From an uncultured Prevotella sp. (GTDB lineage: Bacteria; Bacteroidota; Bacteroidia; Bacteroidales; Bacteroidaceae), in contig NZ_CAMJOS010000009.1 in NCBI RefSeq assembly GCF_946407605.1, positions 1 through 64,000 on the forward strand: 64,000 bases of DNA. The letters are read 5' to 3'. The position numbers and the translations under genes are program-made. This document shows positions 48,331 through 57,700 of this stretch, one piece after another; positions within the stretch are counted from its first letter, which is position 1, and each line of letters opens with the position of its first letter. Under the pieces are notes generated by a model. The model did no database searches and was not told the DNA's origin. It was given only the letters and a program-made list of their open reading frames with translations.

Positions 48331-48361
48331 TTTGTTTTGTGCAAAATAATTGCTATCTTTG
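48331..48361 (+). promoter_or_regulatory. promoter of the methyltransferase leader
   Basis: TTTG (48331-48334), 19 bases, TATCTTTG (48354-48361). It predicts a start near 48366 and hence a leader of about 330 bases before the ATG at 48695. Confidence 0.78.
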
Positions 48362-48429
48362 CATTCAAGTACTGCCAATTGTAGTAAACTACACTTGCTT
48401 CGGCAGCTCCCTGGGTGCAGGGTGGTGGT

Positions 48430-48504
48430 ATGACTTTTGAGGGTAAAACAAATGAAGCGTACGCTTTTAATTCAAAACGTCTCTTAAGCTTGGCCGCGAA
48501 ATAG
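48430..48504 (+). CDS. candidate 24-codon leader peptide (uORF)
   Basis: ATG at 48430 after GGTGGTGGT opens a short frame, MTFEGKTNEAYAFNSK then RLLSLAAK, with stop TAG at 48502. Its last third lies in the 29-nt element shared with the helicase leader. There the two base differences within codons are both synonymous (TCA/TCG, GCG/GCA). A ribosome here would cover the 5' strand of the large hairpin. Translation is inferred only. Confidence 0.4.
   Translation: MTFEGKTNEAYAFNSKRLLSLAAK
48469..48497 (+). repeat. 29-nt shared leader element, copy A
   Basis: AATTCAAAACGTCTCTTAAG then CTTGGCCGC. It matches copy B (52154-52182) at 28 of 29 bases. Both precede a gene of the same putative system. Confidence 0.85.
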
Positions 48505-48600
48505 ACGATCACCAAAATGATAAAAGTGGACGTTCACGCAGATAGCGTGGGCGTTTATCTTATCTTTTGGTGAAGGCACCGGCCAAGCGCCTGAGACGTT
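48476..48600 (+). other. 125-nt extended stem-loop
   Basis: Paired segments from outside in: AACGTCTC/GAGACGTT (48476-48483, 48593-48600); GCTTGGCCG/CGGCCAAGC (48488-48496, 48580-48588); TCACCAAAA/TTTTGGTGA (48509-48517, 48565-48573); GATAA/TTATC; and ACGTTCACGC/GCGTGGGCGT (48530-48539, 48545-48554) with loop AGATA. That is about 41 pairs. Confidence 0.8.
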
Positions 48601-48694
48601 GGATAAGTATAAACTGTCCACGTTTTTTCATGCGCTTGGCCGATGTCGCGTTATTGAAGAAATTCCGTTCGCTTTCTTCAATAACTATGAAACT

Positions 48695-51442
48695 ATGGCA
48701 AAGAAACTGCAACTTGGCTATAGGGAGATAGAGCAACGATTAGCCGATTCGTTCAGTAAGGGTGTGAATCCATCTGAGGTGGGTTATCAATTACTCTATT
48801 CCTTTGGCAAAAGCGAACGTGACATTGAGCGTTACAAAGAGGGTAAGGGGGTACTTAAAACCTTTGATGGCTTGCTCATCAAGGGCCTTTTCTGCTATCA
48901 ACCCGTCAGTATGTTTGGCTTAACATCACAATTGGAACTACTAAAGACGGAACCACAGATTATCAAGGCAGCACCTAAGATCATTGCTGTAAGTGATGGT
49001 AAGTCAATTTTAGCTTATGATCTCAGGGAAAAAGATACTTATGAGAACCAACTGGAGCGACTGCCCTCTGACTTTGCTTTCTTCTATCCATTGATGGATG
49101 TAGAGCGCGTTCACTATGTGGAGGAGAGCCCTGCAGACATCAAGGCGGCAGAGAAATTAGCCAAACTTCATGACGAACTGCGAGCCTATAATGAGTTCCG
49201 TAGTAATGATGACCTGCACGACCTCAACATTTTTATAACCCGCCTGCTGTTCTGCTTCTTTGCAGAAGATACTGGCATCTTCGAGGAAAACCTTTTTACG
49301 AGTTCGATCCAACGATATACCAAGGAGGACGGTTCGGACCTATCAGACTATCTGGCACATACCTTTAATATTATGGATGTCTCGTTGCGCAGTCGTGAAA
49401 CGCTGAGCATCATCAAGCAGTTCCCCTATGTGAACGGTGGTCTGTTCTCCAAACATATTCAGATACCCAAGATGGGTGCTAAGGCCCGCAGGATTATCAT
49501 TGAGTGTGGCGAACTGGACTGGAAGGACATTAACCCAGACATTTTCGGCTCAATGATCCAGGCTGTGGTTAATCCTGAGGAACGCGCCAATCAGGGAATG
49601 CACTATACGAGTGTGCCAAACATCATGAAGGTGATTAACCCGTTGTTCTTGGATGAACTGCGTGGAGAATATAACAAGCTGAATGAGTTCTATGAGCAGA
49701 AACTTCAGATGAAGAATATTGGCGCACTCTCTGTGAAACAATTCTATGATGACTTGAAGCCTGTGATAAGAAAATGTGATGCTTTGTTGAAGCGCATGAG
49801 TCGCATGAAGTTCTTTGACCCTGCTTGTGGTAGCGGCAACTTCCTGATTATCACCTATAAGTGTTTGCGATTCCTCGAAATGGATATCCTTGCATTACAG
49901 CAGAAGTGTACCCCTCAAGGTGAAATCCTATTTGTGGATAACAGCGTTATATCGCTGAGCCAGTTTTACGGCATTGAGTTGCTCGACTTCCCTCACGAGG
50001 TGGCGATGCTGTCACTCTGGTTGGCAGAGCACCAGATGAACACCAAACTCAATGAGAACTTTGGCGTCAATACCAAGGCCCTGCCCTTGAAGAATATTAC
50101 CCAAATCGTCTGCGGCAATGCCTGTCGTATTGACTGGAATACAGTATGCCCACATACCCCAGATGAAGAGGTCTATATCTTTGGTAATCCACCGTATTTG
50201 GGAAGTCGGAACCAAACCGAAGATCATAAATCAGACATTGATTTCGTTCTTGGAAGAGTTAAATCGCATCGTCGATTTGATTATATTGCAAACTGGTTCT
50301 TTTTAGGTTCCAAATATATTAAAGGCTCGAAAGCGCGTCTTGCTTTTGTATCTACCAACTCCATATGCCAAGGAGAACAATTAAGCCTTTGGGATGAGGT
50401 CTTAGAAAATACGGAAATTGGCTTTGCCTATACGACATTTAACTGGACAAATAATGCAAAATATAATGCTGGCGTATCTGTAGTAATAATAGGCATTAGA
50501 GGGAAATGTAAAGAAAAATGTTTCTTATATGAAGGAGATGAGAAAAAAGAAGTAGATTCAATATCTCCTCGTTTGTCTAATGAGACTTTATATGTGTCTA
50601 TTCAAAAACAGACAAAGTCAATTTCTGATTTGCCTGAAATGAGAAGAGGTAATATGCCTAATGATAAAGAGTATTTAAGGTTGTCTGTTTATGAGAAGAA
50701 GCAGATGATTGACAACTATCCAGACTCATCAAAATATATAAGGCTACAGGTAGGTTCTGAAGAATTCATCAATAGCATTGAGCGATACTGTTTGTGGATT
50801 TCTGATGAGGATTATTCTTCCGCAATATCAATTCCACCAATTAAAGAGCGTGTTGATGCTGTTAGGGAATACCGACTTCATAGCAAAGATGTAACGTTAC
50901 ATGAGCAAGCAAAACGTCCACATCAGTTCAGAGAGTTCTTCGAGTGCGGCGAATGGTCGTTGCTGATTCCAATTGTATCTTCAGGAAGAAGAGATTATAT
51001 ACCAATTGGTTTTCCCCCAAATAAGACCATAGTGCCAAATTCTGCTCAAGTTGTCTATAATGCAGATTCTTTCTTATTTGGATTGTTGTCATCCAAATTG
51101 CACAATATGTGGGTAAAAAAGAATGCAGGAAGGATGAGAAGCGATTTTCGTTACTCAATTTTCCTATGTTACAACACCTTCCCCTTCCCCAAAATCTCTG
51201 CTGAGAAGAAGCAGGAGATAGAATCAGCAGCAGAGGAAGTGCTGATTACTCGTGAGTATTATCCTGAGAAGACTTTGGCAGAGCTTTATGACCCAGACAA
51301 GATGCCACAGGATTTGCGTGAGGCTCATGCCAAACTGGATGACATCGTGGAGAGTTGCTATCCTGGTTATCCTTTTGCCTCAGACGAAGCCCGTTTGGAG
51401 TGTCTGTTTAAGCTCTACGAAAAGATGACATCTGCGAAATAA
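48695..51442 (+). CDS. MmeI/YeeA-like DNA methyltransferase (adenine-N6 type)
   Basis: This is a large class I SAM-dependent DNA methyltransferase, probably the modification and target-recognition subunit of an anti-phage system. From ATG 48695 (MAKKLQLGYREI; 915 aa) there is an N-terminal region (about 1-190) with APKIIAVSDGKS. A helical spacer has the MmeI-type FGSMIQAVVN and GMHYTS. The methylase core has motif I FDPACGSGNF and motif IV GNPPY. A target-recognition/C-terminal part follows, with WSLLIPIVSSGRRDYIPIG and YNTFPFP. I cannot find the D-ExK nuclease of true MmeI, so cleavage, if any, must come from a partner. Bases about 50200-51150 (target recognition) look more AT-rich than the rest. 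TTG 48599 is an alternative start inside the leader hairpin. Confidence 0.85.
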   Translation: MAKKLQLGYREIEQRLADSFSKGVNPSEVGYQLLYSFGKSERDIERYKEGKGVLKTFDGLLIKGLFCYQPVSMFGLTSQLELLKTEPQIIKAAPKIIAVSDGKSILAYDLREKDTYENQLERLPSDFAFFYPLMDVERVHYVEESPADIKAAEKLAKLHDELRAYNEFRSNDDLHDLNIFITRLLFCFFAEDTGIFEENLFTSSIQRYTKEDGSDLSDYLAHTFNIMDVSLRSRETLSIIKQFPYVNGGLFSKHIQIPKMGAKARRIIIECGELDWKDINPDIFGSMIQAVVNPEERANQGMHYTSVPNIMKVINPLFLDELRGEYNKLNEFYEQKLQMKNIGALSVKQFYDDLKPVIRKCDALLKRMSRMKFFDPACGSGNFLIITYKCLRFLEMDILALQQKCTPQGEILFVDNSVISLSQFYGIELLDFPHEVAMLSLWLAEHQMNTKLNENFGVNTKALPLKNITQIVCGNACRIDWNTVCPHTPDEEVYIFGNPPYLGSRNQTEDHKSDIDFVLGRVKSHRRFDYIANWFFLGSKYIKGSKARLAFVSTNSICQGEQLSLWDEVLENTEIGFAYTTFNWTNNAKYNAGVSVVIIGIRGKCKEKCFLYEGDEKKEVDSISPRLSNETLYVSIQKQTKSISDLPEMRRGNMPNDKEYLRLSVYEKKQMIDNYPDSSKYIRLQVGSEEFINSIERYCLWISDEDYSSAISIPPIKERVDAVREYRLHSKDVTLHEQAKRPHQFREFFECGEWSLLIPIVSSGRRDYIPIGFPPNKTIVPNSAQVVYNADSFLFGLLSSKLHNMWVKKNAGRMRSDFRYSIFLCYNTFPFPKISAEKKQEIESAAEEVLITREYYPEKTLAELYDPDKMPQDLREAHAKLDDIVESCYPGYPFASDEARLECLFKLYEKMTSAK

Positions 51443-51453
51443 CGGCAGAAAAA

Positions 51454-51485
51454 TTTGGAAGTTACAGATAAAGTCCGTATCTTTG
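51454..51485 (+). promoter_or_regulatory. internal promoter of the two-gene cassette
   Basis: TTTG (51454-51457), 20 bases, TATCTTTG (51478-51485): exact consensus beginning 12 bases after the methyltransferase stop. Confidence 0.82.
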
Positions 51486-51510
51486 CAGTGTAATTGCAAA
51501 GAAGTGAGTT

Positions 51511-51633
51511 ATGAAACTGACAAAGGAAGAAGCACTGAAGCGTTTTAAAAACGCACTGAATCGCAAGAAGGCTTGGGAAGAAAAGTTCGAAGCGAAATAT
51601 GCTGATGTAACAAACTTGTACACAACAGCATAG
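51511..51633 (+). CDS. 40-aa small protein
   Basis: ATG 51511, 25 bases after the -7 box, opens MKLTKEEALKRFKNALNRKK and ends in TNLYTTA. It is a very charged, probably all-helical peptide, too short for the ORF track. The stop TAG abuts GGAG and the next start (51639), so the two are translated as a pair. The size, charge and pairing recall antitoxins or accessory regulators, but no family is recognised. Confidence 0.6.
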   Translation: MKLTKEEALKRFKNALNRKKAWEEKFEAKYADVTNLYTTA

Positions 51634-51638
51634 GAGTG

Positions 51639-52133
51639 ATGAACAATCTTTCCTTAGACTATATTAACACGAGGTCGCCATATCTGGTCAAACGAGCAGA
51701 TGATGGCGATTATGTGTTTCAGACTGCCAAGGGCGTTATCTATGGCATTGGTTTTATCGAGAACGACCCTCTTGGAGGATGCGAAACTTATCAGTTGTCC
51801 ATCAGTAACCAGAATAAACTCCATGCTTCATACGACCCAGATGTAAAGAACACCACACTTATTATTGTCGATGCGTTCTTCCGCGAGAACTTAGACGGCT
51901 TGCTTTATATGTGTGATACCAGTGATAGCCGTGAAGCTGCACGCAACCGACTGTTCTTGCGATGGTTTGAGGAATCTGCAGAACCAGAACGTTTTACAAT
52001 AAAGACGGCAAGTGCTGTGATAGAAGGGCAGGGGATATATGCTGCTATCATTGTTGAAAACCGGAACCCTATGGCCCAAGCAATTATTGATGACTTTGAA
52101 CTGACAGCAAAGATGCTGACAGAAGACAAATAA
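51639..52133 (+). CDS. hypothetical protein, possibly DUF6169-like
   Basis: A 164-aa cytoplasmic protein starts at ATG 51639 (GTG 51636 is the track start). It has YVFQTAKGVIYGIGFIEND, a beta-rich first half, then the helical DSREAARNRLFLRWFEESA, and a strand-helix end ENRNPMAQAIIDDFELT. It resembles small Bacteroidetes proteins I remember under DUF6169, with low certainty. It is cotranscribed with the 40-aa gene from a private promoter inside the methyltransferase-helicase gap. That arrangement fits an added module such as a toxin-antitoxin pair or an anti-defence sensor; this is conjecture. Confidence 0.6.
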   Translation: MNNLSLDYINTRSPYLVKRADDGDYVFQTAKGVIYGIGFIENDPLGGCETYQLSISNQNKLHASYDPDVKNTTLIIVDAFFRENLDGLLYMCDTSDSREAARNRLFLRWFEESAEPERFTIKTASAVIEGQGIYAAIIVENRNPMAQAIIDDFELTAKMLTEDK

Positions 52134-52153
52134 CAAAGCGCTACAAAACTAAG

Positions 52154-52182
52154 AATTCGAAACGTCTCTTAAGCTTGGCCGC
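52154..52182 (+). repeat. 29-nt shared leader element, copy B
   Basis: AATTCGAAACGTCTCTTAAG then CTTGGCCGC, 28/29 identical to copy A. A second weaker block follows: ATCTTTTGAGGAAAGGCGCTG here against ATCTTTTGGTGAAGGCACCG at 48562. Confidence 0.85.
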
Positions 52183-52198
52183 AGACAGACAAACGTAG

Positions 52199-52239
52199 AG
52201 AATATCTTTTGAGGAAAGGCGCTGAACTAAAGATATTCT
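52199..52239 (+). other. perfect 11-bp stem-loop before the helicase start
   Basis: AGAATATCTTT (52199-52209)/AAAGATATTCT (52229-52239). The loop contains GAGGAAAGG, the only ribosome-site-like sequence near the ATG at 52243. Folding would bring it close to the start codon, or hide it. Confidence 0.8.
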
Positions 52240-52242
52240 GAC

Positions 52243-54261
52243 ATGCTAAAAACTGAAAACACGATTGTTGATATCAAGTATCAACAGACAGGGACGGCTA
52301 CTGCCGTAAACCCCTTAGGAATGCGCGAGATGCAGGCAATGGCCTACGAACATCGTAACAAACGTTTCCTTCTGATTAAGGCACCTCCAGCCTCTGGAAA
52401 GAGCCGCGCACTGATGTTTATTGCACTTGATAAGTTGCAGAATCAGGGACTTAAGAGAGTTGTGGTGGCTGTGCCTGAAAAGAGTATTGGCCGCTCGTTT
52501 AAGAATACCAATCTGACGAATGGTGGCTTCTTTGCCAATTGGGCCGTACCAACATATTTCAATCTGACTGATGTCAAAAACGAGCAGGACAAGAAAGGTC
52601 GTTTTATTGAATTCTTCCGTCAGAATGGTGCGAAGATACTGGTTTGCGCCCATGCTACCCTGCGAAATGGCATGAAAGAACTGGAAGACGAAGCTTTTAA
52701 CGATACATTGTTGGCTATTGACGAGTTTCACCATACCAGTGCTGATGCCAATTCAAATCTTGGCGACGTGGTGCGCAGAGTGATGAACAACTCCACAGGA
52801 CATATCGTTGCTATGACAGGAAGCTATTTTAGAGGCGATGGTGTGCCTGTGCTCAGAGCAGAAGATGAGGCAAGATTCTTCCCTGTAACCTATAATTACT
52901 ACCAGCAACTAAACGGCTACAAATATTTGAAGAACCTGATTTTGGGTTATCACTTCTATCATGGTTCGTATCTGGATCGTATTGGTGAAGTGCTCGATAC
53001 CACGAAGAAAACGATTATCCACATACCCAGTGTGAATGCACGTAGTTCAACGGGACTCGGTAAGTATACTGAGACTGGCGAAATCATGAAAGTGATAGGT
53101 ACTGTCGAATCAAAAGATTATAATACTGGTATTTATAATGTAAGAACTGCTGATGGCAGACTGCTGAAGGTAGCAGACCTTGTGGAAGACGACCAGAAGG
53201 AGCGCAATATGGTGCAAGGATATCTGCAAAACATCAAGCATCGTGACGATGTGGACATTATTATTGCACTGGGTACAGCCAAGGAAGGATTTGACTGGCA
53301 GTGGTGTGAGATGTGTCTGACGGTTGGTGTACGTGGTTCGCTGACTGAAGTGATACAGATTATTGGAAGATGTACGCGTGACTGTGAAGGAAAAGAAACG
53401 GCTCGTTTTGTGAACCTGATAGCAATGCCGGATGCCGAGCAGGCAGAAGTGAAAGTGGCGGTAAATGACTTTTTGAAAGCAATTACCGCGTCGCTTCTGA
53501 TGGAACAGGTGATGGCACCCAGTTGGAAGTTTAAAACCATTAAGGACGAAGACGACGGTAAAGGCGATTTGACGCATACTATTGTTGTGGAAGGACTGAA
53601 GCCGCTGTCAAGCGAAAAGACAAAGACGATTGTTGAAAGTCAACTTGATGATTTGAAGGCTGCTGTATTGCAGGACGACATGATGGTCAAGGCGTTGAGT
53701 GGTTCTACTACAGCAGAAACGATTACCCAGCATATCATTCCAAAGATAATACGTGAACGTTATCCGGAGTTGACGGACGAAGAAATTGAGGAGGTGCGTC
53801 AGCGTTTGCTCCTCGACACCATCATTAAAGGCAATGATATTGTTAATGAAAAAGGTGAGCCAATCTCTTCGATACCAAGTAGTGGCGATGGTGAAGAGAA
53901 GAGTGAAGGAAACAGGCTGATAAAGATTGCCAATAGGTTTATCAATATTGACCAACTTAGTATTAACTTGATTGACACGATAAATCCTTTCCAGCGTGCT
54001 TACGAAGTTATATCTAAGTCGGTAGATGCTAAGACGCTCAAACTGATACAAGATACTATTGCAGAGCAGAAATATGATATGACCTTAGAACAGGCCATCA
54101 TTCTGTTCAAGGGTCCGTTGAAAGAATATGTGGCTGAGCATGATGGGAAAATACCATCAATGGATGATCCTGATCCAAGAGTAAGGGAGTTAGCCGTGGC
54201 TTATGCAAAGATATGGAACCAGAAACGCCGTCAATTGAGCGGACTAGAAATAGGAGAGTAG
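52243..54261 (+). CDS. SF2 DEAD/DEAH-type helicase, YeeB-like
   Basis: This 672-aa ATPase is the motor partner of the YeeA-like methyltransferase. Helicase motifs in order are motif I APPASGKSRA (about 45-54), Ia VVVAVPEKS, II DEFHH, III AMTGSYFRG, V ALGTAKEGFDW and VI QIIGRCTRD. The C-terminal half (about 430-672) is helical with no nuclease motif I recognise. Such helicases translocate on DNA between recognition and cleavage. The start follows the shared 29-nt element and a hairpin. The small gene at 54266 begins 4 bases after its stop, with GGAGAG overlapping the stop. Confidence 0.85.
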   Translation: MLKTENTIVDIKYQQTGTATAVNPLGMREMQAMAYEHRNKRFLLIKAPPASGKSRALMFIALDKLQNQGLKRVVVAVPEKSIGRSFKNTNLTNGGFFANWAVPTYFNLTDVKNEQDKKGRFIEFFRQNGAKILVCAHATLRNGMKELEDEAFNDTLLAIDEFHHTSADANSNLGDVVRRVMNNSTGHIVAMTGSYFRGDGVPVLRAEDEARFFPVTYNYYQQLNGYKYLKNLILGYHFYHGSYLDRIGEVLDTTKKTIIHIPSVNARSSTGLGKYTETGEIMKVIGTVESKDYNTGIYNVRTADGRLLKVADLVEDDQKERNMVQGYLQNIKHRDDVDIIIALGTAKEGFDWQWCEMCLTVGVRGSLTEVIQIIGRCTRDCEGKETARFVNLIAMPDAEQAEVKVAVNDFLKAITASLLMEQVMAPSWKFKTIKDEDDGKGDLTHTIVVEGLKPLSSEKTKTIVESQLDDLKAAVLQDDMMVKALSGSTTAETITQHIIPKIIRERYPELTDEEIEEVRQRLLLDTIIKGNDIVNEKGEPISSIPSSGDGEEKSEGNRLIKIANRFINIDQLSINLIDTINPFQRAYEVISKSVDAKTLKLIQDTIAEQKYDMTLEQAIILFKGPLKEYVAEHDGKIPSMDDPDPRVRELAVAYAKIWNQKRRQLSGLEIGE

Positions 54262-54265
54262 AGGC

Positions 54266-54508
54266 ATGAGTATGATTATAAGAGACATCAAGAAAGAATT
54301 GCTTGAACTATTTGATGATCCTTTGTTGGATGGCGCACGTCCTTTTGCTAAGGCCATTACTGCAGATGACAGAATCATGCAGAAGATTGCTGAGATAAAG
54401 GAATGGATAGCTCAAAATGGTCGTGAACCACAAAAGAATGGTAACTTGAAAGAGAAACTAATGTTTGCATCATTAACGACATTAAAAGAAAAGGGATTAT
54501 GGACATAG
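54266..54508 (+). CDS. 80-aa protein with LFDDPLL motif
   Basis: A small, probably helical, acidic/basic mixed protein: MSMIIRDIKKELLELFDDPL then LDG. The segment LLELFDDPLL is almost the same as LEALFDDPLL at the start of the next protein, suggesting a shared docking peptide or a duplicated N-terminus. The second half (EIKEWIAQNGREPQ, LMFASLTTLKEKGLW) has the pattern of small linker proteins. It overlaps the next gene by 10 bases, so translation is coupled. No known family is named. Confidence 0.7.
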   Translation: MSMIIRDIKKELLELFDDPLLDGARPFAKAITADDRIMQKIAEIKEWIAQNGREPQKNGNLKEKLMFASLTTLKEKGLWT

Positions 54509-55722
54509 ATAAAGAATTGGAGGCATTGTTTGATGACCCATTGTTGAATGTTAGCGAAGAAGAAAAGAGTCTTTTTGAAATTCCACAGGATATGCGAAGG
54601 GTGATTGCCAAGAAGAAAGCTGATTATGTGGCCCAACATAAACTCTGCGAGAACTTCGATGATTACAAACCCTTATTTGCGAAGGTACATCGTGAGTTGA
54701 AACAAGGACTGCGCTCGTTGGTCAAAATTACCAAGACTGCTACACTCGCTGAAGGTCGCTTTTATTTTGTAAGTGGACAAATGCTATTGTTGGAAAAGAT
54801 AGGGGAACTGAAGAAAAGTAGTAACTTCCTTCCAGATGCGAGAACGCGTTGTATTTATGAGAATGGTACTGAGTCGGACATCCTGTTACAAACACTTCGA
54901 AAGAATGTTGTGGGTGACGGGTATGCAGTAACAGAATTGCAGGAAGATGTTAATGGCAAGTTCTTTAGCAATTCTGATATAACAGCAGATGACAAAGTGA
55001 CGGGCTACATTTATGTACTTAGTTCATTATCGCAAGACCCTGTTATCAAAGACGTAAAGCATCTCTATAAGATTGGATTCTCGACAAATAGTGTTGAGCA
55101 AAGAATAGCAAATGCTGAGAATGAACCCACATACTTGATGGCTCCAGTAAAGATTCAAGCTACCTATAAGGTAGTTAATGTAAATTCTCAGAAGTTTGAA
55201 GACTTGATACATCAGGTATTAAAGCCAGCTCAATTCCAAGTGTCTGTATTCGACGATAAAGGTGCAGAGCATCAACCTCAAGAATGGTTCATAGTACCTT
55301 TGCCTGTTGTGGATGTAATTATCCAAAAAATCATGGATGGAAGTATTGTAGGATACACTTATAATCCTGAGCAAGAATGTTTGGAAAAACGAATAATAAA
55401 GGAGAAGTCTACATTCGATACCAAAGGCATGAAGGTTCTGACACTCAATATCAAGAAGATATACTTTGATGATATTCTGAGTGGTGCAAAGAAGATAGAG
55501 TATAGAGAATTGAAGCAGACGACACTCAACAAATATACCTATCTGGATGAATCTGATGGAAAACGCTATCTACGTCGATATGATGCAATACGTCTTTTTG
55601 TCGGTTATCATAAAGCTAGAGAAAGCGCCTTGGTTCAGGTGAAGGATATCACGTACAGGAATGGTGTCGTGGAATATCATTTAGGATTAATCTTAGAAGT
55701 AATAAATAATAAGCATAAGTAA
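54499..55722 (+). CDS. GIY-YIG (T5orf172) nuclease-like protein with C-terminal ASCH domain, YeeC-like
   Basis: This 407-aa protein has an N-terminal LEALFDDPLL motif, a helical region (about 25-160), and a T5orf172-type GIY-YIG domain (about 165-285). The domain shows GYIYVLSSL, LYKIGFSTNSVEQRI (catalytic-type Arg) and FEDLIHQVL (Glu and His). Residues about 310-407 form an ASCH domain (LTLNIKKIYFDDILSGAKKI, YDAIRLFVGYHK), a fold that binds RNA or modified bases. It may be the nuclease of the system, possibly sensing base modification through ASCH; that is inference. It fits the third position of the yeeA-yeeB-yeeC order. Confidence 0.83.
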   Translation: MDIDKELEALFDDPLLNVSEEEKSLFEIPQDMRRVIAKKKADYVAQHKLCENFDDYKPLFAKVHRELKQGLRSLVKITKTATLAEGRFYFVSGQMLLLEKIGELKKSSNFLPDARTRCIYENGTESDILLQTLRKNVVGDGYAVTELQEDVNGKFFSNSDITADDKVTGYIYVLSSLSQDPVIKDVKHLYKIGFSTNSVEQRIANAENEPTYLMAPVKIQATYKVVNVNSQKFEDLIHQVLKPAQFQVSVFDDKGAEHQPQEWFIVPLPVVDVIIQKIMDGSIVGYTYNPEQECLEKRIIKEKSTFDTKGMKVLTLNIKKIYFDDILSGAKKIEYRELKQTTLNKYTYLDESDGKRYLRRYDAIRLFVGYHKARESALVQVKDITYRNGVVEYHLGLILEVINNKHK

Positions 55723-55725
55723 ATC

Positions 55726-55839
55726 AAGTACACGCCTGAACCGACCCAGTTGTGTTCCGGCCTGACCTACGATGAGGTGCTTATCATAGACCCAACTCCG
55801 CCATTCACGCAAGAAGATTACGAACAAGACAACTTATAA
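55726..55839 (+). pseudogene. C-terminal coding remnant
   Basis: Directly after the GIY-YIG stop, and in the same frame, 37 codons read KYTPEPTQLCSGLTYDEV then LIIDPTPPFTQEDYEQDNL and a stop. There is no start codon, and the composition is protein-like and less AT-rich. This looks like the tail of a former gene whose 5' part was lost when the neighbouring genes arrived. The parent family is not recognised. Confidence 0.6.
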
Positions 55840-55845
55840 GAAAAG

Positions 55846-56601
55846 ATGCCCATCAATAAATACATAAGTACCAAAGATGCGGTCCGTCTAACCGGTCTTT
55901 CAACGCAGGAAATTTACGACCTGATTCATAACGGTACGCTTCCAGCTCGCAAAGCCCCCAAAAGCGGATGGCGTATTATGCCACAAGATCTGGCTGGATT
56001 AGGATTGATTAAGAATGAGTCAGACTCTATTGAAGAAGTTCCTCAAACGGAGGACTATATTTCTTATGTAGCAGATGAGGAGCATTACTCAGAGGTATTC
56101 AAACGGATGACAGAAGTGAAACATAGCTTGAAAATAGCAACGGCAAATCTAAAGAACTTTAGCGTTACTATTGAGTCAGATAGCGGAGATGAAAAACTAC
56201 GCTTATGCGACTTCTTCCTGTTACTTGTGGAGCGAGGTGTTCATGTTCAGGTGGTGTGCATGAAGCCTTTCGGATTCTACCTGTACACAAAGGAAAACTG
56301 CCCTCAACTTTTGGACAATCCTCTCTTCGAGTTACGTTATAACGAGCACAACCATATGAAATTATTCGTCTTTGATGATGAATGTGCTTACATTGGTTCT
56401 GCCAACATCACCTCGGCTGCTATAGGCATGCGGGTAAAAAGAAATCATGAAGCAGGGATGTTGGTTAGTGGGGAGAATCTAATAATGGCACCACTACGTC
56501 ATTTTGAAAAGGTTTGGGATAATCCAGACATATTTAAACATACCTGGAAACGTTTTACCAAAATGGCAAAGGAGTTAGAAAAAGCAGTATTATCTAAATA
56601 A
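55846..56601 (+). CDS. HTH domain fused to phospholipase D-like nuclease domain
   Basis: In this 251-aa protein, residues about 5-55 form an excisionase/MerR-type helix-turn-helix (STKDAVRLTGLSTQEIYDLI, then a GWRIMP wing). Residues about 75-240 are a PLD fold with one HKD motif, HMKLFVFDD plus IGSANITSAA. One motif per chain implies a dimer forming the active site, as in Nuc/BfiI-type nucleases. The HTH could read a specific DNA site, making this a DNA-guided nuclease or a self-regulator. It starts 6 bases after the coding remnant and is on the same strand as the restriction-like genes. Confidence 0.82.
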   Translation: MPINKYISTKDAVRLTGLSTQEIYDLIHNGTLPARKAPKSGWRIMPQDLAGLGLIKNESDSIEEVPQTEDYISYVADEEHYSEVFKRMTEVKHSLKIATANLKNFSVTIESDSGDEKLRLCDFFLLLVERGVHVQVVCMKPFGFYLYTKENCPQLLDNPLFELRYNEHNHMKLFVFDDECAYIGSANITSAAIGMRVKRNHEAGMLVSGENLIMAPLRHFEKVWDNPDIFKHTWKRFTKMAKELEKAVLSK

Positions 56602-56617
56602 ATTCTCTTTTGTTCGT

Positions 56618-56647
56618 TTTGGCTGAACAAAAAAATGATTATCTTTG
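56618..56647 (+). promoter_or_regulatory. promoter of the ASCH-like gene
   Basis: TTTG (56618-56621), 18 bases, TATCTTTG (56640-56647); 44 bases to the ATG. Confidence 0.7.
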
Positions 56648-56691
56648 CAAACAGAAAACAATAATTACGTATAACTAAAAATCATAAGACT

Positions 56692-57114
56692 ATGAGTAAG
56701 AATTTGAAATCCAAGTTTGTGGATATTTGCGGAGGCGAAACTCTCATTAAACTGAATTCTGATGACAATGATAACGTTCTAAAACTTAAAGTCAATAAGG
56801 ATACGTTTAAGAGCATTGTAAGCGGTAAGACGAAAGTATATACAGATGCGATTTCTCCTAAAAATCTCAGTATGTTCTTTGTTCTGAATGAAGATGGGAC
56901 TGTGAAGGAGATTAAGGGCGTTCCGCAGTTAAGGAAGTATGAGGCAATTCAATTCATCAACAAAGATGAGTCATATACCTGTCAGATAAACAATGCTGAT
57001 GTGGTATATATGAATCCTGATATTGGAAATATCATACCTTATTCTGAATTAGAGGATGAAAACATTGACTATACTGACTGCATGATATCCTATACTTTGG
57101 GGGAAAAGGTTTAA
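56692..57114 (+). CDS. stand-alone ASCH-like protein
   Basis: A 140-aa protein with LKVNKDTFKSIVSGKTKVY, LRKYEAIQFIN, NNADVVYM and ISYTLG. These align in order with the ASCH domain of the GIY-YIG protein (LNIKKIYFDDILSGAKKIEY, LRRYDAIRLF, VEYHLG). I therefore assign an ASCH-like fold by internal comparison. ASCH proteins bind RNA or nucleosides, and some hydrolyse modified cytidines. It has its own promoter, so it may be an independent sensor or an accessory of the island. Confidence 0.65.
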   Translation: MSKNLKSKFVDICGGETLIKLNSDDNDNVLKLKVNKDTFKSIVSGKTKVYTDAISPKNLSMFFVLNEDGTVKEIKGVPQLRKYEAIQFINKDESYTCQINNADVVYMNPDIGNIIPYSELEDENIDYTDCMISYTLGEKV

Positions 57115-57605: not shown

Positions 57606-57700
57606 ACGCAGAATTCGCCTTGAATTTACACAGAATTCGCCTTGAATTTACGCAGAATTCGCCTTGAATTTACGCAGAATTCGCCTTGAATTTACGCAGA
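57606..57700. repeat. 22-bp minisatellite, four full copies
   Basis: Unit ACGCAGAATTCGCCTTGAAT+TT at 57606, 57628 (ACACAG variant), 57650 and 57672, with a partial fifth at 57694. There are no spacers, so it is not CRISPR. Confidence 0.95.

Follow-up and report, generated by a model that had tools for sequence, protein, structure and literature searches.

The 64,000-nt window analysed here, from a rumen Prevotella-type genome, carries a known but barely studied kind of DNA defence. We read the locus (Table 1) as an ATP-dependent restriction-modification system of the dnmA-yeeB-yeeC type with a nuclease that would act in trans, a cargo slot and an attenuator-like leader, and we give this reading a probability of roughly two in three.

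Table 1. Features of the island, with window positions and the basis of each assignment
Feature	Position	Strand	Basis
Probable promoter -7 region (TATCTTTGCA type) of the methyltransferase leader	48344-48363	+	sequence
Structured 5' leader RNA of the methyltransferase	48364-48694	+	fold z -9.25, covariation, no Rfam match
R1, 5' arm of the leader (AATTCAAAACGTCTCTTAAGCTTGGCCGC)	48469-48497	+	pairs with M in 335/336 cells
P2 hairpin of the leader, compensatory changes in outer stem	48509-48573	+	covariation
M, arm complementary to R1 (GGCCAAGCGCCTGAGACGTT)	48581-48600	+	pairing with R1
Terminator-like hairpin and U-tract, mutually exclusive with R1:M	48596-48630	+	in 21/21 leaders
MmeI/DnmA(YeeA)-type N6-adenine DNA methyltransferase, TRD present, cis nuclease motif lost	48695-51442	+	Pfam, PADLOC, alignments
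DUF6169 protein, exchangeable cargo of the methyltransferase-helicase slot	51639-52133	+	PF19666 E 1e-31, slot comparison
R2, nearly identical repeat of R1, 89 nt ahead of the helicase start	52154-52182	+	repeat comparison
SF2 helicase/translocase, YeeB type	52243-54261	+	Pfam, motifs, predicted-fold matches
80-aa protein, detached N-terminal module of YeeC-type nucleases	54266-54508	+	hhalign probability 99.5, E 3.7e-23
GIY-YIG (T5orf172) nuclease with C-terminal ASCH fold, YeeC type	54499-55722	+	Pfam, structure comparison
HTH-PLD protein	55846-56601	+	HTH_17 and PLDc_2 (Pfam)
Small ASCH-like protein	56692-57114	+	weak similarity to ASCH part of the nuclease

Composition of the island

An ORF check placed the genes where an earlier note on this DNA had drawn them. 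That note had called the first protein an MmeI-like methyltransferase, and five MmeI Pfam domains, all above cut-off, bear this out, together with the motifs FDPACGSGNF and NPPY, both invariant among relatives, a PADLOC match to REase_MTase_IIG (E 3e-281) and an alignment with MmeI (PDB 5hr4) over residues 107-904 (E 1e-163). The full set of SF2 motifs claimed for the second protein, a ResIII/DEAD protein by Pfam, was also found (APPASGKSR, DEFHH, TGSYFR, GTAKEGFDW and QIIGRCTRD); these are invariant in relatives, as are the GIY-YIG motif residues of the nuclease. The fold matches of the helicase model include HsdR of EcoR124I and the type ISP enzyme LlaBIII, which are only two among many generic SF2 matches.

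The third protein had been described as T5orf172 plus ASCH. The first part stands (Pfam E 8e-14). ASCH, at E 0.03, does not reach the Pfam cut-off, yet the fold predicted for the C-terminus resembles the ASCH structures 3iuw (probability 1.00, TM 0.69), 5y6c and 5gus. The fourth protein is, as proposed, an HTH_17 domain fused to PLDc_2 with a single HxKxxxxD. The free ASCH gene reported at the 3' end has no Pfam ASCH match and only a weak resemblance to the ASCH portion of the nuclease (29% over 84 aa, E 2e-4). The ASCH modules, which the earlier note had linked to the sensing of modified nucleotides, might have such a role. The 80-aa gene, the DUF6169 identity of the slot gene and the structured leader were absent from the earlier note.

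The GC content of the island, 38-44% against 50-60% in its neighbours, fits horizontal acquisition, and visual inspection of the window's ORFs revealed no integrase. At the 3' side, a 22-nt tandem repeat (ACGCAGAATTCGCCTTGAATTT) is present in four copies (57606-57693). On the 5' side of the leader, the protein P0008 (47754-48179) has only weak matches to the LPD3 and UPF0223 families; locus L006 has a broken homologue of it at the equivalent place.

A core conserved across phyla

The core is of a known kind, since its gene order is that of the Bacillus subtilis dnmA-yeeB-yeeC (yeeABC) cluster, which is conserved across phyla (PMC9973331). The earlier note had matched this order correctly, and its view that the mix is no named system holds only in part, since the core had already been described. 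As in the B. subtilis and Vibrio crassostreae clusters, an MmeI-type N6 methyltransferase that has a TRD and lacks the N-terminal PD-ExK motif (judged against five nuclease-bearing controls) is followed on the same strand by a YeeB-type SF2 helicase and a YeeC-type T5orf172 nuclease. The present locus differs from yeeABC in that the nuclease is split, its 80-aa N-terminal module being a gene of its own, and in having a C-terminal ASCH fold on the nuclease, a cargo gene in a slot and a structured leader with a duplicated arm.

Among 36 loci found through the nuclease, the order methyltransferase, slot, helicase, small gene and GIY gene is kept wherever the contig is long enough, except in the fragmentary L035 and L037. 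As an independent test, 43 loci were selected by their helicase on viral contigs, a few of which are near copies of each other: the methyltransferase lies on the same strand in all 33 that have more than 1 kb upstream, and the GIY gene is present in 40 of the 43, the three exceptions being short or partial. The earlier note had taken conservation limited to the methyltransferase as the outcome that would speak against its reading, and this is not what was found. The order methyltransferase-helicase-GIY is also found on plasmids of Actinomycetota, Pseudomonadota and Bacillota, and the system is sparse in the sampled genomes (17/393 in the order and 7/297 in the phylum). Membership of DISARM, BREX or MADS was rejected: the locus lacks the full gene sets and gives weak partial matches to the DrmMI, DrmC, mad2 and PglX models.

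Loss of the nuclease motif in cis

The motif D-x9-E-x-K is kept in all five stand-alone plasmid proteins of the MmeI family (for example DLFWKGVLLVEQK), which have no helicase or GIY neighbours, and is missing from all 12 that are partnered by helicase and GIY genes (the window protein and 11 others); these stand-alone relatives served as the comparison, the nuclease domain of MmeI not being directly alignable. The absence of D-ExK that had been noted before is therefore real. The division between stand-alone and partnered enzymes, like the hypervariability of the TRD described below, is new here. With the cis motif gone, cleavage must come from another protein, as the earlier note had inferred, and a single-protein enzyme of type IIL/IIG was rejected on the missing catalytic motif despite the PADLOC match.

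Compared with MmeI (type IIL), with which the spacer, the gamma-class N6 methyltransferase, the TRD and the C-terminal bundle are alignable, the nuclease here would act in trans, with a helicase. The logic of methyltransferase/TRD, SF2 motor and nuclease, as well as the fold matches of the motor, recalls type I (EcoR124I) and type ISP (LlaBIII) enzymes, but here the nuclease is a separate GIY-YIG protein and not a PD-D/ExK domain on the motor. On a Pseudosulfitobacter plasmid (L091, 4989-10428), an MmeI-type methyltransferase without the nuclease motif is followed by HEPN and ATP-binding genes, and helicase and GIY genes were not found within about 15 kb downstream; the HEPN and ATP-binding genes are a possible alternative partner set for such a methyltransferase.

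A detached module of the nuclease

In most phyla, about 95 additional residues form an N-terminal module of the YeeC-type nuclease. Prevotella-type loci and Acinetobacter and Proteus plasmids encode this module separately, and it is fused in L032-L034. On the strength of the profile comparison with the N-termini of fused nucleases (Table 1), the 80-aa protein is this module in detached form, which is new here. Both halves, the 80-aa protein and the nuclease, carry an acidic LxxIFxDDPLL motif, and the small protein and these motifs may serve in docking. The window belongs to the Bacteroidales clade to which the ASCH fold is confined; nucleases at a greater distance end short of this fold.

A structured leader with a copied arm

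Before the methyltransferase stands an attenuator-like RNA that shows covariation and has no Rfam counterpart, and a copy of its 5' arm precedes the helicase. This leader, which looks like an undescribed RNA switch, is new here. The leader follows what we take to be a Bacteroidetes promoter; its 20-nt motif has three copies in the island, this one included, and a sigma-70 promoter scan gave no excess above shuffles. R1 pairs with M or, alternatively, the 3' half of M forms a hairpin followed by a U-rich tail, in 21/21 leaders. Across these leaders, 99.1% of cells pair, and cells with double changes number 40 against a shuffle mean of 11.7 (0/500) and at most 10 in slid controls. In the energy model, the truncated transcript prefers R1:M (-98.2 kcal/mol) and the terminator forms when R1 is blocked (-82.9 kcal/mol), which would give the leader alternative antiterminator and terminator states. 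Mutually exclusive hairpins before a U-tract are also the hallmark of known leader attenuators; here, in contrast, there is no Rfam match, the arms are locus-specific and one arm is duplicated before a second operon gene. Rfam held no credible match to this leader or to related leaders in 11 other loci; ceN61 (in the window) and MIR4239 (in L188) were rejected as far below gathering scores and not located at the leader.

The 29-nt R1 sequence recurs as R2 in 18/18 loci with cargo on the sense strand, accompanied by R1 in every contig that extends to the leader, and the energy model gives an R2 x M duplex of -32.5 kcal/mol. Seven loci have R1 without R2, their slot being empty or holding an antisense toxin module or a remnant. 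The R1 element is present in 2 of 251 family genomes, with two copies in each, and was not found in the viral contigs searched. R1 and R2 exactly flank the methyltransferase and its cargo, and cargo has been exchanged between operons, as would be expected of recombination repeats around a cassette; that they are such repeats and not RNA regulatory elements is nevertheless unlikely, as the covarying structure of which R1 is part occurs at many other loci, where a second copy is lacking.

Relatives of the leader in the genus

A covariance model of the leader also finds those of L061, whose methyltransferase is 44% identical, and L036. With a limit of E 0.01, 63 of 120 genomes from the genus have matches; the E-values are rough, the weakest matches are uncertain, and at these positions the palindromic arms also yield some weak antisense matches, few in number. 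Among 22 leaders, the median difference between the arms of different loci is 16 of 26 nt. Median pairing energies are -26.4 kcal/mol for the two arms of one locus, -12.2 between loci and -11.9 for shuffles, and foreign arms pair as well as own ones in 0.6% of cases. The selection of leaders is biased toward pairing because the model rewards it, but this private pairing far exceeds that bias. A second arm copy was seen in none of the 21 other related leaders tested.

The genes 3' of 19 fetched matches include those for EcoRI-type methylases (three loci), DUF4007, an N6/N4 methylase, a C5 methylase, an MmeI-like methylase fragment, an SNF2 helicase, two ResIII proteins, BspA-like repeats and probable lipoproteins, the genes of L184 and L186 being assigned by resemblance to the scanned L183 and L192. 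Relatives of the leader lie before genes for BspA-like repeats or lipoprotein-like proteins in L198 (982-1134, in the window's own genome) and L199-L202, and thus the RNA family is not confined to defence. It is tempting to see here an undescribed attenuator RNA family, common in the genus, that precedes many operons for DNA modification and defence, each locus having arms of its own, and whose arm, copied before the motor gene in this operon, keeps restriction in step with modification by RNA pairing or through one arm-binding factor; we hold this view tentatively, at somewhat less than an even chance.

A variable recognition domain

Across 33 loci, median pairwise identity is 85% for the helicase, 80% for the nuclease and 42% for the TRD, the other parts of the methyltransferase standing at 83% (N-terminal), 71% (core) and 89% (C-terminal). 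In MmeI, base 6 of the site is set by the residue pair 806/808 (Morgan 2009, as cited through PMC9973331 and PMC7261158); the equivalent pair is R-D in the window protein, for which a methylation site ending in AG is predicted, K-D in some relatives and E-R in others. The hypervariable TRD and this alternating pair fit diversification of the target. In L005, the C-terminal end of an older methyltransferase lies behind the present one, the scar of a replacement.

In B. subtilis, where the product of DnmA is GACGm6AG, knock-outs showed no effect on the three phages or the plasmid uptake tried, DnmA alters gene expression and the cluster was judged a relic; the lack of protection there implies that some members of the family may be inactive. 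Homologues in V. crassostreae are reported (PMC9973331) to protect against some phages. By analogy with B. subtilis, the methyltransferase alone might be functional in the window, as an orphan epigenetic regulator beside a decaying helicase and nuclease. We consider this improbable, as both partners are intact and, in complete loci, strongly conserved, more so than the TRD, whose hypervariability fits a restriction system and not a fixed regulator, as does the L005 scar. The role in defence proposed in the earlier note is probably correct.

A slot for exchangeable genes

Between methyltransferase and helicase, the loci variously hold DUF6169, a polyvalent-type kinase, antisense YoeB/RelE or VapC modules, YhcG, HEPN, RhuM or, inside the restriction operon of L032 (4700-6714), a CBASS cyclase with TIR-STING, some of the toxin assignments having been made by eye; in L006, the slot is 23 bp long and has no gene. 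The 13 cargo types require at least 19 changes on the helicase tree. Loci with helicases 84-95% identical to each other share DUF6169 proteins at 93-98% identity, so the cargo has been exchanged between operons. Outside Bacteroidota, the two core genes are contiguous on most plasmids, and no relatives of DUF6169 were found among the viral contigs searched. These comparisons indicate that the junction is a slot for swappable toxin and immunity genes, which is new here, and its cargo may be passengers and not guards.

The earlier note had also counted the PLD and free ASCH-like genes as parts of the system, which did not hold up: their neighbourhoods are not conserved, and we rejected them as core genes. 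An HTH-PLD gene lies 3' of the nuclease only in the window and in L020 (a 32% relative). The closest PLD relative found (73%), at L114 9309-13141, sits 18 bp behind a type III Res gene and is a restriction-associated hitchhiker. The free ASCH-like gene is rare: apart from its own genome, 3 of 300 genomes of the family have weak relatives.

That the core only senses while DUF6169 or HTH-PLD is the effector, a notion prompted by slots housing toxins, HEPN, YhcG or the CBASS cyclase and TIR-STING pair, is very unlikely, since cargo differs between close relatives or is absent (L006 and the plasmid copies) while methyltransferase, helicase, small gene and GIY gene stay, and the PLD protein is shared with a type III system.

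Proposed mechanism and significance

In the restriction-modification system that we favour, the MmeI-type protein would, by homology, read an asymmetric site through its variable TRD and methylate adenine in host sites. At an unmethylated site on incoming DNA, it would stay bound as a sensor and load the SF2 motor. The motor, joined through the 80-aa protein and the acidic LxxIFxDDPLL motifs, would then bring in the GIY-YIG nuclease to cut, in place of the lost PD-ExK nuclease in cis. Enzymes of the MmeI family modify a single strand, and cutting is therefore likely to require two unmodified sites that converge, as in type ISP and type III enzymes. The swappable cargo, here DUF6169, may guard the system. 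In the leader, whose structure is shown by covariation, R1:M pairing would keep the terminator open, and blocking R1 would close it, while R2 could let the same factor, or base pairing with the M arm of the leader, balance restriction against modification.

The yeeABC cluster has been described as a relic and also as a defence system, and this locus and its relatives provide a testable case, with a nuclease that moved from cis to trans, a split subunit, a diversifying TRD and a slot in which toxin and immunity genes gather. A long-standing question is how restriction is restrained until modification is complete, and a leader RNA whose arm is copied before the motor gene would be one answer to it, and one that is directly testable.
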